In this document: positions 7,238 to 13,426 of the stretch, in pieces
How the letters are laid out: each line of letters opens with the position of its first letter
Position numbering within the stretch: position 1 is the stretch's first letter
Origin: Candidatus Caldarchaeum subterraneum
GTDB taxonomy: Archaea > Thermoproteota > Nitrososphaeria_A > Caldarchaeales > Caldarchaeaceae
Reading direction: 5' to 3'
DNA length: 39,565 nucleotides
Assembly: GCA_000270325.1 (NCBI GenBank)
Contig: BA000048.1
Location: 147,476-187,040 of the forward strand
Notes under the pieces: model-generated
Told to the model about the DNA's origin: nothing
What the model saw: the letters and a program-made list of their open reading frames with translations, nothing else
The model's database searches: none
Made by a program: the position numbers and the translations under genes

Positions 7238-7606
7238 TTGAAGAGGCTCAGTCCCCGTGAGATGAGGCGTGCTCAGGAGAGAATGTTGAAGAACCTTGGC
7301 CTCAACGTTGAGGAGATGGGGCAAGCGGAGGAGGTTGTCATCAAGCTGGGTGAACGTGTGATTACGCTGAGGGGGCCACTGGTCTACGCCGTGAAAACAG
7401 GCGGCGAGAAAATTTTTCAGATAATCGGCGGGGAGGAGGTGGCGGCGCAGGAGGTGGAGACGAAGCCTGTTTACGAGCCGTCGGAGGAAGATGTTTCGCT
7501 GGTGATGGCTCAGACAGGTGCGTCAGAGGAGGAGGCGAAGAAAGCGCTTCTCGACTCGGGAGGAGACCTAGCCAAAGCCATCCTAATGATTCGGTCAAGA
7601 AGATAA
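7238..7606 (+). CDS. nac: Nascent polypeptide-associated complex protein (archaeal aNAC)
   Basis: 122 aa. The NAC domain (VVIKLGERVITLRGPLVYAVKTGGEKIFQIIG) occupies about residues 32-65 and is followed by a C-terminal UBA domain (SEEDVSLVMAQTGASEEEAKKALLDSGGDLAKAILMI, about 82-118). The N-terminal basic helix (SPREMRRAQERMLKNLGL) matches the ribosome-anchoring segment. The archaeal homodimer binds emerging chains at the ribosome exit. The start is TTG, which has a TATA box at the right distance; the ATG at 7233 is out of frame. The gene ends 12 nt inside the convergent regulator gene. Confidence 0.96.
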   Translation: MKRLSPREMRRAQERMLKNLGLNVEEMGQAEEVVIKLGERVITLRGPLVYAVKTGGEKIFQIIGGEEVAAQEVETKPVYEPSEEDVSLVMAQTGASEEEAKKALLDSGGDLAKAILMIRSRR

Positions 7607-9202
7607 TATGATAAACGGACGCAAGTCCAGCAAATCCTCAGCCATTTTCACATCCATTTTTGCGACCATCCCGCCTGTGAAAAACCGGGCCAGCTCACGG
7701 GCCTCACGCGACGAAGACGATGCAACATCAAAGGAATACGGCGCGTCGCCTGCTATCCGCTCAACCTCACGCACACCAAGAGACAATTCATCAAGCCTCT
7801 TCATTCTCTCAGCCGCTCTTCTACTTGCCCTGCTTCCCAGAAGAACCACCACATCTTCATCCACACCGCTACATTCCTGAGCAACCTTCTTCACCAGCTC
7901 AACCCTGCCAAACCCCTGCTTGACAACCAGCTGCTCAACACCCACAAGGGACAATACAAATGAACCCTCTTCACCCGGCCAGAAACGTTGTAGAAAACGT
8001 TTTTTAGCAGAGAACGCGGCGGCAACAGTATCCACAGTCTCCCGCAAAGCGTCCCAGAACTTTCTCTCAGAACTCCCAGACCTGAGGAAGAGGCTCACCA
8101 TGTTGATGGAGGCTTTTCCAGAAATAATCCCCGCCTCGCCGAATGGATGACCCTCCGAGGAAACTACCCCATGAGCCAAAACCAGCAAAACATCACCAGT
8201 CAGCCGTGCGACGTTTTTGTCAAAAGGCAGAGTGGCGCATATTCCCGCTTCAGTCAACAGGTTTGACGTGTTCTCCCGCGGCTCAGAGTAGAAAACGGAT
8301 AGCCGTCTCCCAAACATGTGAACAGATTCAAACAAAAGCGTCAAGATGTTTACGTCTATGTTAGGGTCCCGCAACACCACCTCAGCCTCAACACCGCCAA
8401 CCTCGCCGAAAACAGTTTTCAACGAATCCGGCGTGTATAGACGCGAATAGACGCTAAAACCCCATGTTTCCAATCCCTCGAAATCAACCGCGCCAACCAA
8501 GTAAAGTTGAGCGGCCTCACTCGGCAAAATTTTGTGAAAAACATATTCTCTGAAAACCGCTCCAGAGGCCGTGGTTATCAGAGACATGAAATCTCTCTGG
8601 TGATGATTCTCTCTGACCAGCTTATCCACGTCAGCAACAGGCATACCCAGCCTCGCCAACCTATTCCTATGCTCCATCAACCCATGCTCGACAAGCAACG
8701 CGTTGACCATCTCACGTATCAGAGGAGCCGAAAGCTCGCCTAGCTTAAGCTCCTCCACCTTCTCCTCAAACAATTTAACAATCTTATCCGCGGTTTTAGG
8801 AGGCAAAGAAGCCTCCTCAACAAGGACCCGCGTAATCTTGTTTCTGTCAAAATCTTCGAGAACCATGTCTGACCTTCTAACCTTTATCCTCTGCGAGATA
8901 CTTGCCCTCATCTCGTTCAGGATTTTCAGAACCTGCACACCCTTCGTCGTCAACTCATAGTTCTTGGTCTGACGGTTGAGCGTTATCAAGCCCGCTGCAT
9001 AGAGCATTTTTAGATGATGCGCAAACTTTCCAGCATCGCTTTTCTTGTTCATTCCAAGTACATGCATCAACTCCGTGTAATTCAGCGGGCTTTTCTCCAG
9101 CTTCCTAAGAATGCTAAGCCTGTTAGGTGAAGCCAGTGATTTGAAGATTTTAGCGTCATCTATTGCTTCGCTCATCTCGGAGACAGATGAATGCCTTCGC
9201 AC
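7595..9202 (-). CDS. Winged-helix + ATP-cone protein with a degenerate NrdD-like domain
   Basis: 535 aa, three parts. An ArsR-like winged helix comes first (IFKSLASPNRLSILRKL, FAHHLKMLYAAGLITL). An ATP-cone follows (about residues 105-195: VRRSDMVLEDFDRNKITRVL ... EMVNALLVEHG), the nucleotide-sensing module of ribonucleotide reductases and NrdR. The long C-terminal part tracks anaerobic RNR (NrdD): VFREYVFHKILPSEAAQLYL then VGAVDFEGLETW, and later GIISGKASINMVSLFLRSGS then SERKFWDAL. I see no glycyl-radical C-terminus and no run of cysteines expected for the active site or zinc site, so it is probably not an enzyme. Best reading: a dATP/ATP-responsive transcription regulator derived from NrdD. 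GTG at 9202 is chosen because a box at about 9226-9234 is 27 nt upstream; ATG at 9175 is the alternative. It is divergent from argF. Confidence 0.75.
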   Translation of the reverse strand: MRRHSSVSEMSEAIDDAKIFKSLASPNRLSILRKLEKSPLNYTELMHVLGMNKKSDAGKFAHHLKMLYAAGLITLNRQTKNYELTTKGVQVLKILNEMRASISQRIKVRRSDMVLEDFDRNKITRVLVEEASLPPKTADKIVKLFEEKVEELKLGELSAPLIREMVNALLVEHGLMEHRNRLARLGMPVADVDKLVRENHHQRDFMSLITTASGAVFREYVFHKILPSEAAQLYLVGAVDFEGLETWGFSVYSRLYTPDSLKTVFGEVGGVEAEVVLRDPNIDVNILTLLFESVHMFGRRLSVFYSEPRENTSNLLTEAGICATLPFDKNVARLTGDVLLVLAHGVVSSEGHPFGEAGIISGKASINMVSLFLRSGSSERKFWDALRETVDTVAAAFSAKKRFLQRFWPGEEGSFVLSLVGVEQLVVKQGFGRVELVKKVAQECSGVDEDVVVLLGSRASRRAAERMKRLDELSLGVREVERIAGDAPYSFDVASSSSREARELARFFTGGMVAKMDVKMAEDLLDLRPFIILSS

Positions 9203-10214: not shown

Positions 10215-10385
10215 GTGGGAATCACGGGCTTCTTCAAGTCGGCGTTGACAACCCTAAAAATGGCGAAAAAACCCTCTTGGAAAGAATATTCCATAACGCT
10301 AAGAATAACTTTGCTGGGGCTGGGCATCATAGGTGTTCTAGCCTTCATCATCCGGTTTCTGGCGATAGCTTTCCAGCCCGCCTGA
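10215..10385 (+). CDS. secE: Preprotein translocase subunit SecE / Sec61 gamma
   Basis: A 56-aa ORF from GTG 10215 to TGA 10383-10385, easy to miss because of its size. The amphipathic N-terminal helix FFKSALTTLKMAKKPSWKEY precedes a single membrane span (ITLLGLGIIGVLAFIIRFLA). The KPSWKEY turn before the span is the SecE/Sec61-gamma hallmark. It clamps the two halves of SecY in the membrane. An in-frame TGA just upstream makes GTG the first possible start. A TATA-like ggttaaatag overlapping the argF stop is about 25 nt upstream. Its place directly before spt5 and L11 is the conserved archaeal secE-spt5-rpl11 order, which strongly supports the call. Confidence 0.92.
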   Translation: MGITGFFKSALTTLKMAKKPSWKEYSITLRITLLGLGIIGVLAFIIRFLAIAFQPA

Positions 10386-10440: not shown

Positions 10441-11325
10441 ATGAGGTATTTCGCAGTCAAGACAACGGTGGGGCAGGAGAGGACGGTAGCAAACGTTCTC
10501 GAGGCAAGGTTCCACGGCATTTTCCTCGACTTTGTCGGAGAATCGGTGGGAACAGTAGCGATAAGCGACAAAACTCATGCTGCAGTGATATTCGTCTCCC
10601 CGAAAACAACCACGTTAGAGAAGGTGGCGGTTTACATATCCAAGGCCGGCGAGCCGACCGAGCCTCTACGCGCCCAGTTATTGGAGTACAGCGATGAAAC
10701 AGGGTTCGGTTCAGAGCCCCTAGGTGAGGGAAGCTACGACCCCCTACTTCTCAAGACAGAGGGGTGGGCTGAGATAGTTTTCCGCTCCCCTGTGAAACTT
10801 AAGCGAGGCGCATCCTATGCTCTGAAGATTTTCAAAACAGTTGAGGAGCCAGGTGGATATAACTTGTTTCTAGGAGAAGGTGAGAAAGAAGAGCTGCGGT
10901 TCAAGGTGTTGGAGCAGGAGGAGTGGAGGGACGATGCTCGGCTGCCTCTATTCAAGCTGATTGAGAAGCCGGCGATTGCGTCTATATTCATTCTGCCCGC
11001 CTTGAAGGGCTACGTGTTTGTTGAGGCTACGTCTAAAGAGGTTATAGCCGATGCGCTGCAGAATGTTAGACATGTGAAGGCGAGGCCGCCGATGCCTGTA
11101 AAGCTGGAGACCATCGCCTCTCACTTGGTTGAGAAACCTTTGATTGAGGTGTTGGCGGCTGGGCAGATGGTTGAGATTGTCTCCGGCCCGTTGAAGGGTA
11201 TCGTCGGCAAAGTCATCAGGGTCGAGAAGTCGAGGCGCGAGGTCACGCTTGAGCTTAAGGAGGCGGCTTTCCAGCTCCCCATATCCGTCTCAATAGACGC
11301 CGTCCGCCCCCTAGACAAGACGTAA
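10441..11325 (+). CDS. spt5: Transcription elongation factor Spt5 (NusG homologue) with an inserted domain
   Basis: 294 aa, about twice the usual archaeal length of about 150. NGN begins with MRYFAVKTTVGQERTVANVL at residues 1-20 and resumes at about 169 with ASIFILPALKGYVFVEA and VRHVKARPP. A KOW domain closes the protein (QMVEIVSGPLKGIVGKVIRV, about 242-261, then VTLELKEAAFQLPISV). Residues about 26-168 are an in-frame insert with beta-rich, sandwich-like sequence (KVAVYISKAG, WAEIVFRSPVKLKRGASYAL). Spt5 with Spt4 clamps RNA polymerase and links it to the ribosome. The start MRYFAVKTTVGQE matches homologues. A GTG at 10417 is in frame but lies at or before the start site predicted from tttttatt (10392-10399). 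It follows secE and precedes L11. Confidence 0.93.
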   Translation: MRYFAVKTTVGQERTVANVLEARFHGIFLDFVGESVGTVAISDKTHAAVIFVSPKTTTLEKVAVYISKAGEPTEPLRAQLLEYSDETGFGSEPLGEGSYDPLLLKTEGWAEIVFRSPVKLKRGASYALKIFKTVEEPGGYNLFLGEGEKEELRFKVLEQEEWRDDARLPLFKLIEKPAIASIFILPALKGYVFVEATSKEVIADALQNVRHVKARPPMPVKLETIASHLVEKPLIEVLAAGQMVEIVSGPLKGIVGKVIRVEKSRREVTLELKEAAFQLPISVSIDAVRPLDKT

Positions 11326-11360: not shown

Positions 11361-11849
11361 ATGGGTGAAAAAACCTTCCGCTTCCTCGTAGAAGGCGGCA
11401 AAGTCACGGCAGGCCCACCGCTGGGACCAGCCCTAGGGCCTCTTGGGTTGAATGTGTTGGCCGTGGCCGAGGAGGCTAACAGGCTTACACAGGAGTTTAA
11501 CGGTATGCGGGTCCCTATCGAGGTGGTGGTCGACACAGACACTAAGAAGTTCGAGATAAGGGTTGGGACGCCTAGCACCTCGGCGCTTCTGGCCAGCGCG
11601 GCGGGTGTGCAGAAGGGAAGCGGGACCGCTGGACGTGATTATGTGGGCGACCTCAAGTTCACCGAAATCGTGAAGATTGCTGAGAAGAAGCTTCAAGACA
11701 TGAGGTCTAAGACGCTCAAAGCCGCTGTCAAAGAAGTACTCGGTTCATGCGTCAGCATGGGTATAAAAGTTGACGGCAAGGACCCCAAGGAAGTTGTCAA
11801 GCTTGTCGAACAGGGAAAATACGACAATCTACTGGGTGAACAGAATTGA
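11361..11849 (+). CDS. rpl11: Ribosomal protein uL11
   Basis: 162 aa. The N-terminal L11 domain has the signature KVTAGPPLGPALGPLGLNV, in which PPLGPALGPLG forms the proline-rich hinge contact. The C-terminal rRNA-binding domain includes FEIRVGTPSTSALLASAAG and the conserved CVSMGIKVDGKDPKEV. It binds the GTPase-centre rRNA with L10/L12. A box aagtata at about 11324-11330 places a start site just ahead of the ATG, so the ribosomal genes may have their own promoter besides read-through from spt5. Its TGA overlaps the L1 start (TGATG), indicating coupled translation. Confidence 0.98.
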   Translation: MGEKTFRFLVEGGKVTAGPPLGPALGPLGLNVLAVAEEANRLTQEFNGMRVPIEVVVDTDTKKFEIRVGTPSTSALLASAAGVQKGSGTAGRDYVGDLKFTEIVKIAEKKLQDMRSKTLKAAVKEVLGSCVSMGIKVDGKDPKEVVKLVEQGKYDNLLGEQN

Positions 11850-12505
11850 TGCGCTCCGAGTTAGCGAAGACGGTTGAAGCATTGAAAAAGGCTAAGCAAA
11901 ACAGAAAGAACACGAAGTTTAAGCAATCGGTCGAGCTTGTGATAAACGTCACTGGAGTAGACCTTACCAAGCCCCAGAACAGGTTTTCAGAAGTGATTGA
12001 GCTCCCCAACGACCTTGGTAGAAAAAGGAGAAAAATCCTGGTCATCGCTTCGGGAAACCTTGCTCTCGAAGCCTCTAAGACGCCGGGTGTGGCCCGGGTT
12101 ATCCAGAAAGAAGAGCTGGAGGCACTTGTGGGCAGAAAGAAAGAAGCGAAAAAGATTGCGGCCGAGTATGATTTCGTTCTGGTGGAGCCCGCTCTTGTGG
12201 GGTTGGCTGCGAGAGTCCTCGGAGCAGCTCTCGGCGCAAGGGGAAAGACACCTATACCCATTCCACCCGGCAGCGATATTCAGAAGCTTGTGAAAAGATA
12301 TGAAAACAGTGTCGTAGCTACTTTGAGGAAATCACCGCAGGTAGCTTGCCTCGTCGGGGTGGAGGAAGACCCCGATGAAAAAATAGCCGAAAACGTGGAA
12401 ACAGTGTTGAACAGAGTGGTTGAGAAGCTTGAGAAGAAGCGGCGAAACATCGCCAGCGTCTATGTCAAGACCACGATGGGCAAGCCGGTGAAGGTGGAGT
12501 TTTGA
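11849..12505 (+). CDS. rpl1: Ribosomal protein uL1
   Basis: 218 aa from the ATG that overlaps the L11 stop. Features include FKQSVELVINVTGVDLTKPQNR, the IELPNDLGRKRRKILVIA loop, DFVLVEPALVGLAARVLGAA, the conserved ARGKTPIPIP turn and the final SVYVKTTMGKPVKVEF. It forms the L1 stalk at the tRNA exit side. Archaeal L1 commonly autoregulates its operon by binding its own mRNA; I did not identify a kink-turn mimic here. The L11-L1-L10 order is canonical. An in-frame TTG directly before the ATG adds only one codon. Confidence 0.98.
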   Translation: MRSELAKTVEALKKAKQNRKNTKFKQSVELVINVTGVDLTKPQNRFSEVIELPNDLGRKRRKILVIASGNLALEASKTPGVARVIQKEELEALVGRKKEAKKIAAEYDFVLVEPALVGLAARVLGAALGARGKTPIPIPPGSDIQKLVKRYENSVVATLRKSPQVACLVGVEEDPDEKIAENVETVLNRVVEKLEKKRRNIASVYVKTTMGKPVKVEF

Positions 12506-12562
12506 TGAATAACTTGATTAATAACCACAGCGATGGAGCAGCCAGCGCGGAGAGTTGAAACC

Positions 12563-13426
12563 ATGTCAACCACTGTTACTCGGCCCAGCTTAGTGAAGAA
12601 GGCAAAACTCGTTGAAGAGGTAGCTGAGCTTATCAGGAAATATCCTGTGGTCGCCATCTTTGACCTGAGAAGCACAAGAGCCAACACCATACATGAGATG
12701 AGGAAAAAGCTCCGCGGAGTATGCGAAATAAGGGTTCTCAAGAGGACCTTGTTCGTGAAAGCATGCAGGCTCGCGGGTAAGCCTGAGCTGGAGAAGCTCG
12801 TGGAAAACATCAAAGCTCCTATAGGCTTTATCTTCAGCAGCGTCAACAGTTTCCAGCTCGCGTTTACGCTGGAGAAGAACAAGGTCCCCATGCATGCCAA
12901 AGCCGGTGAGAAAGCCGACTTTGACATCTGGGTGCCTGAGACAAACACAGGTCTTCCGCCGGGCCCGATTCTCAGCGACTTCGGCAAACTCAAGATACCG
13001 ACGAGAATAGAGGGTGGACAGGTTTGGATAGCGAAGGACACGCTTGTGGCTAAGAAGGGTGAGGAAATATCCCAGCTGCTTGCAAGCCTGTTGGCTAAGC
13101 TCGACATCAAAGCTGTTCTAAGAGGTGTTAACCTGATAAGCGCCTACGAGGACGGCGTCATTCTAAAGGCGGAGGAGCTTCTAATAGACCCTGTCAAGAT
13201 TGGGCAGGAAATCGCTTCAGCTGCCTCGCTCGCACTCGCATTCGCGGTCGAAATATCATACATAACCAGGGAAACACTGCCGCCGCTGCTGATACGCGCC
13301 GAAACACACGCCAGAGCACTCGCAACAGAGGCCGGGTTCTACACAAAGGAGACGCTTCCCATAATCTTTGCCAAGGCCTTGGCAGAGTCGAGTGCTTTAG
13401 CGCGGGCCGCGGGTGTTTCTGAGTAG
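12563..13426 (+). CDS. rpl10: Ribosomal protein uL10 (P0), lacking the usual acidic tail
   Basis: 287 aa from MSTTVTRPSLVKKAKLVEEV; ATG 12533 would add 10 residues. The rRNA-binding domain includes YPVVAIFDLRSTRANTIHEM, IRVLKRTLFVKAC and TGLPPGPILSDFGKLKIPT. The C-terminal helices (SAASLALAFAVEISYITR, PLLIRAETHARALATEAG, TLPIIFAKALAESSALAR) are the platform for L12 dimers. The protein ends at ARAAGVSE without the charged tail that closes many archaeal L10 proteins. The end overlaps the 3' end of alaS on the other strand by 30 nt. L12, normally next, is instead on the minus strand 5 kb away. Confidence 0.96.
   Translation: MSTTVTRPSLVKKAKLVEEVAELIRKYPVVAIFDLRSTRANTIHEMRKKLRGVCEIRVLKRTLFVKACRLAGKPELEKLVENIKAPIGFIFSSVNSFQLAFTLEKNKVPMHAKAGEKADFDIWVPETNTGLPPGPILSDFGKLKIPTRIEGGQVWIAKDTLVAKKGEEISQLLASLLAKLDIKAVLRGVNLISAYEDGVILKAEELLIDPVKIGQEIASAASLALAFAVEISYITRETLPPLLIRAETHARALATEAGFYTKETLPIIFAKALAESSALARAAGVSE

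Follow-up and report, generated by a model that had tools for sequence, protein, structure and literature searches.

The DNA analysed here (the window, 39,565 nucleotides) comes from the genome of Candidatus Caldarchaeum subterraneum, which is a single contig of 1,680,938 bases. It carries a gene for the transcription elongation factor Spt5 on the forward strand (10441–11325, 294 amino acids), read as one open frame from an ATG at 10441 to the stop codon at 11325; a start up to eight codons further upstream is possible. The product scored 101.5 bits with the archaeal Spt5 model TIGR00405, above the cut-off of 69.95, and matched Spt5-NGN (PF03439) and then KOW (PF00467) in Pfam. A search of the genome returned one match, so that spt5 is single-copy in C. 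subterraneum. The neighbours are conventional: upstream lies a small secE-like open reading frame (10215–10385, forward strand; 56 amino acids with one membrane span, as read from the sequence), and downstream the list of open reading frames shows the ribosomal protein genes rpl11 and rpl1 (11361–12505, forward strand), with rpl10 (12533–13426) after rpl1. Elsewhere in the window, the reverse strand holds a 535-residue open reading frame (7595–9202) that looks unusual by eye, with a winged-helix-like start followed by an ATP-cone-like segment (RSDMVLEDFDRNKITRVLVEEASL).

Of the transcription elongation factors, Spt5/NusG alone occurs in all cellular life, and few parts of the transcription machinery change as little as its NGN domain. 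Archaeal Spt5 usually has about 150 residues and an uninterrupted NGN, a usual rather than a defining form from which the 294-residue protein of the window departs. It could be aligned with the Spt5 of sister families at residues 1–24 and again from about residue 178, with 153–154 extra residues between, and the site of insertion falls between NGN helix 1 (residues 13–23) and NGN strand 2 (residues 179–183). Alignments and the structure model assign the first part of NGN, strand 1 and helix 1 (MRYFAVKTTVGQERTVANVLEARF), to 10441–10512; profile matches and the model assign the second part, from strand 2 onwards (IASIFILPALKGYVFVEA...) together with a linker, to 10972–11160, and the KOW domain follows at 11161–11322 (PF00467, 2.7e-5), all on the forward strand. 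Between the two parts of NGN, positions 10513–10971 (forward strand, residues 25–177) encode an inserted jelly-roll (beta-sandwich) domain, delimited by alignments, AlphaFold2, Foldseek and profile homology. An earlier note made from the sequence had placed the insert at 10516–10944 (residues 26–168), which is correct as to location but one strand short: the folded unit extends to about residue 177, because the strand at 171–175 (LFKLI) is part of the insert fold.

An AlphaFold2 model of the whole protein, built on an alignment of 11 rows, had a mean pLDDT of 87; most of the insert, which was all beta, exceeded 90. The pTM of the whole model was 0.62, and the orientation of the domains in this model is uncertain. 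Modelled by itself, the insert formed an all-beta jelly roll with a pLDDT of 91.4 and a pTM of 0.87. This agrees with the proposal that NGN is interrupted by a separate beta-sandwich domain, and residues 26–168 do belong to such a domain. Computation shows the insert to be a jelly-roll domain of about 153 residues present in single copy inside the NGN of Spt5; a second copy was not found in the C. subterraneum genome, where the one match was Spt5 itself.

Each of the eight Caldarchaeaceae genomes sampled (two of C. subterraneum, two more of Caldarchaeum, two of Pelearchaeum, HR01 and SZUA-1515) had the same insert at the same position; these genomes represent four genera and independent assemblies from different sources. 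The family includes Pelearchaeum and Caldarchaeum (PMC10547907). In the sister families of Caldarchaeales (three families, Calditenuaceae and the Terraquivivens/Geocrenenecus group included), Spt5 was of normal length in every sequence read. The phylum Thermoproteota was surveyed with TIGR00405 (300 genomes drawn, plus two follow-up searches), and no insert of comparable size was present in the Spt5 matches listed outside Caldarchaeaceae, since the model matched these contiguously over about 410–460 bases, fragments at contig ends apart. A search of 398 Thermoproteota genomes with the insert profile found Spt5 in Caldarchaeaceae only; other archaeal phyla were sampled solely via the scan of the genome collection. 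In these searches the insert is restricted by lineage. A short extension of about 14 residues was observed in the same helix 1–strand 2 loop of four Spt5 sequences of the Geocrenenecus group, and the loop therefore tolerates length change outside Caldarchaeaceae too.

An annotation or assembly artefact, such as a chimeric contig or a fusion of neighbouring open reading frames, has a negligible probability, and nothing was found to support it. It would have left the insert in this one sequence, next to an assembly error; eight genomes from different projects share both the insert and its place, and their separate assemblies rule out an assembly error or fusion. The gene order argF-spt5-rpl11-rpl1 is also kept across the insert-bearing genomes wherever contigs reach and a simple motif test permits.

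The insert evolves faster than the protein that carries it. Between genera, identity was 15–38% in the insert and 60–77% in the Spt5 core, and in comparisons with the window gene the dN of the insert was 3–7 times that of the core. The dN/dS of the closest pair was 0.119 for the insert and 0.021 for the core, wider pairs being saturated at synonymous sites. The insert is under purifying selection, with an omega of about 0.12, and for this reason is not a product of chance. All eight inserts are acidic (pI 4.6–5.5, net charge -3 to -12), the core being basic. Their invariant residues are mainly of the kind that maintains a fold (G, W, P and aromatic). The alignment of the eight inserts also revealed a motif, YDPLLL (residues 99–104; 10735–10752, forward strand), which lies on a loop and is conserved in all of them, reading FDPLMM in HR01. 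In the SZUA-1515 protein, about 16 further residues (around ELDYVSLIRDAQLLT) were observed in the loop before this motif.

The top matches of the insert model in the PDB (Foldseek) were baseplate proteins of phage phi812 (9EUI/9EUJ; E 8.6e-7, TMq 0.70), and further fold matches were the central fibre of mycobacteriophage Douge (8ZDP), a capsid protein of PBCV-1 (8H2I) and a capsid protein of cyanophage A4 (9JWB). These jelly rolls have the same fold over most of the insert (TM about 0.6–0.7), but they are virion proteins with 10–19% identity to it, whereas the insert sits in a cytoplasmic transcription factor. Against viral models the best TMq was 0.82, and many minor tail proteins were among the matches. 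By both values, the insert has the full-length jelly-roll fold of the virion/surface superfamily. At the sequence level, the best of the inserts matched phrog_877 (9e-6), Lectin_like (PF18560; 1.8e-4) and DUF4082 (PF13313; 2.5e-4). Several inserts match the latter two families weakly, and the C. subterraneum protein, at 12.5 bits, falls well short of the DUF4082 gathering cut-off (28.4 bits). No CBM family was matched in the Pfam search with the insert, the NCBIfam search gave nothing meaningful, and the insert profile had no match at E 10 or better among PDB sequences, 1M1G and 2XHC included. The likeness to domains of extracellular or carbohydrate-binding type that the earlier note had seen is upheld by the jelly roll itself, the weak DUF4082 and Lectin_like matches and the phage tail and baseplate folds.

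Relatives were also found in archaea. The insert profile matched a 1501-codon frame of surface-protein character (E 2.1e-9), a 377-residue protein that has a hydrophobic segment at its N terminus (0.004; DUF4082 matched there at 4e-11) and Caldarchaeales proteins of 541–559 residues (2.2e-4 and weaker). The last of these adjoin genes for a tail protein, tape measure, tail tube or terminase, and therefore belong to head-tailed proviruses. For profile–profile comparison we used five domains, three from provirus tail regions (L039, L040 and L042) and two of surface type (L099 and L100). The insert aligned with them in hhalign at 99% over 141 columns, and its HMM gave E-values of 4.8e-11 (L099), 9.8e-5 (L100) and 0.004–0.007 (provirus domains), with shuffled controls at 2 or worse in this small set. 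Homology of the insert to the virion/surface jelly-roll superfamily is well supported at the profile level, because the hhalign value is high and the real domains lie far below the shuffled controls. The five domains share the strand pattern of the insert, its DGG-W motif and its terminal F-F/R motifs. They differ in that YDPLLL was not seen in any of them and in that they occur beside tail genes or in predicted secreted proteins.

Archaeal Spt5 (TIGR00405; 4ZN1/4ZN3, 3P8B, 9BCT) has the same NGN, KOW, RNAP-facing hydrophobic residues, Spt4 partner and secE-spt5-rpl11 neighbourhood as the window protein, but lacks its approximately 153 extra residues between NGN helix 1 and strand 2. Identity to Spt5 of M. 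jannaschii was 38% in the Foldseek alignment. A5, Y191 and F193 of the window protein align with A4, Y42 and L44 of M. jannaschii Spt5, which we take to be the RNAP clamp-binding residues of published mutagenesis; the change of L44 to F is conservative. The conserved E195 is kept in the same alignment. Spt4 (PF06093) was detected in 21 of the 21 genomes searched, including all eight of Caldarchaeaceae; the Spt4 sequences read are ordinary, and four from Caldarchaeaceae retain the zinc-finger cysteines. Judging by these alignments, the RNAP-binding, Spt4-binding and KOW parts of Caldarchaeaceae Spt5 appear to be intact.

In the T. kodakarensis complex, NGN contacts nontemplate DNA via residues 12, 13 and 68 (PMC11616081). 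Two of these, 12 and 13, come before the N-terminal end of helix 1. The C-terminal end, where the insert exits, would lie roughly 15 Å beyond these two contacts, judging from the length of the helix. This exit, together with the acidic surface, argues against contact with upstream DNA, and a position near that DNA, one of those suggested in the earlier note, is not favoured. A nucleic-acid-binding insert is likewise disfavoured by the negative net charge of all eight domains on a basic core.

It had also been suggested that the insert could parallel a domain inserted in the NusG of Thermotoga and Aquifex. That domain, DII (T. maritima 2XHC, A. aeolicus 1M1G), is an extra NGN domain in housekeeping NusG, as the insert is in Spt5, and to this extent the parallel is sound; the site is different, however, and homology to DII was not detected. 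A. aeolicus NusG aligns to DII-less NusG over residues 12–63 and 131–247, and T. maritima NusG from residue 226; this places DII (A. aeolicus residues ~64–130) after NGN strand 2 and before strand 3, whereas the Caldarchaeaceae insert, between helix 1 and strand 2, comes one element before that site. The two have no sequence match, and the bacteria are without Spt4. As far as sequence comparison can tell, the insert is not a member of the DII family, and the two seem alike only in being extra NGN domains.

The reading that we favour, tentatively and with slightly less than even confidence, is that a surface- or virion-type jelly roll was captured once in an ancestor and is now a rigid accessory module of Spt5 for protein docking or bracing. 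Spt4/5 would occupy its usual place over the polymerase cleft, with the insert as a rigid acidic side module that would not affect the RNAP-binding cavity, the interface with Spt4 or the KOW domain. Attached where NGN helix 1 ends, the jelly roll would point away from the upstream nontemplate DNA and might serve as a protein–protein docking or bracing surface toward RNAP, Spt4 or a lineage-specific partner, rather than as a binder of nucleic acid or sugar. A docking or bracing role is suggested because the insert is acidic, is constrained in its fold and, a few residues (YDPLLL, GW) apart, evolves fast. Nearly as likely as docking, and likewise possible rather than probable, is a tolerated passenger: a stable domain in an essential gene, inserted at a loop that permits it, harmless and constrained only to fold. 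The low identity between genera, the raised dN and the mostly structural nature of the invariant residues point in this direction, as does a loop that tolerates extra length both in Geocrenenecus and in the longer insert of SZUA-1515. Against a mere passenger, none of the eight genomes has lost or truncated the domain, which is under purifying selection, YDPLLL is conserved on a loop, and the acidic charge is common to all eight.

By analogy with DII of T. maritima NusG, the insert could instead be a thermal stabiliser or recruitment aid that braces Spt5 or strengthens the Spt5–RNAP interaction when hot. DII has been described as a heat adaptation that aids recruitment and stabilises NusG:RNAP (PMC7819879), and the host organisms come from geothermal settings (PMC10547907). 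However, such a role is weakened because the sister families in Caldarchaeales, although found at hot sites of the same kind, do without the insert; other Thermoproteota surveyed, many of them expected thermophiles, have ordinary Spt5, and the NGN site is not that of DII. We therefore consider a DII-like heat role quite unlikely. Far less probable still is that the insert replaces Spt4 as the partner that stabilises NGN. A mini-domain of Aquifex has been placed near the Spt4 position (Werner, 2012; PMC3382729), which would suit such a replacement, but all eight genomes encode Spt4, which has its zinc-finger cysteines in the four sequences read, and Spt5 keeps E195; the replacement was rejected on the presence of Spt4.

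No earlier description of the Caldarchaeaceae Spt5 insert was found in the open literature searched; the insert is real, family-wide and well folded, and apparently undescribed there. It indicates that NGN can accommodate a large module not only where bacteria have one but also at another site, while apparently keeping its contacts with Spt4 and RNAP. Caldarchaeaceae Spt5 offers a natural test of what can attach to the elongation complex from NGN, and of the use, if any, of extra NGN domains, be it heat stability or the recruitment of partners. Across one heat-loving archaeal family, Spt5 has kept a domain whose type is met elsewhere in viral tails and in proteins of the cell surface.

The presence of YDPLLL in all inserts, and not in their relatives, fits one acquisition followed by vertical descent. 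A tree of the Spt5 core (about 140 positions) did not recover Caldarchaeaceae as a clade (support 25), and for this reason a single gain leans on genome taxonomy, on shared gene order and on the shared YDPLLL. The HR01 insert is very divergent (15–28% identity, with a branch of 1.5 substitutions per site), whereas the HR01 Spt5 core branch is not long; it is possible that the domain was replaced there within the family. Most likely, the insert would have been gained once in the ancestor of Caldarchaeaceae by capture of a domain type found both in surface proteins and in the tail proteins of head-tailed Caldarchaeales proviruses, and then inherited with the gene. More specifically, the jelly roll of a tail or fibre of a head-tailed archaeal virus might have entered NGN by capture and come to serve as a docking module, specific to the lineage, on the elongation complex, which we regard as rather unlikely; if true, part of a virion became part of the core transcription machinery of the host. 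No viral contigs encoding close relatives of the window Spt5 or of the Pelearchaeum tail-region protein were confirmed. Three head-tailed provirus cassettes were observed in Caldarchaeales (L101 on contig C70 of G007, L102 on C38 of G040 and L103 at 83–99 kb of C1 of G025). In their 541–559-residue proteins, a loop of one jelly roll apparently houses another, a domain-in-domain habit shared with Caldarchaeaceae Spt5.
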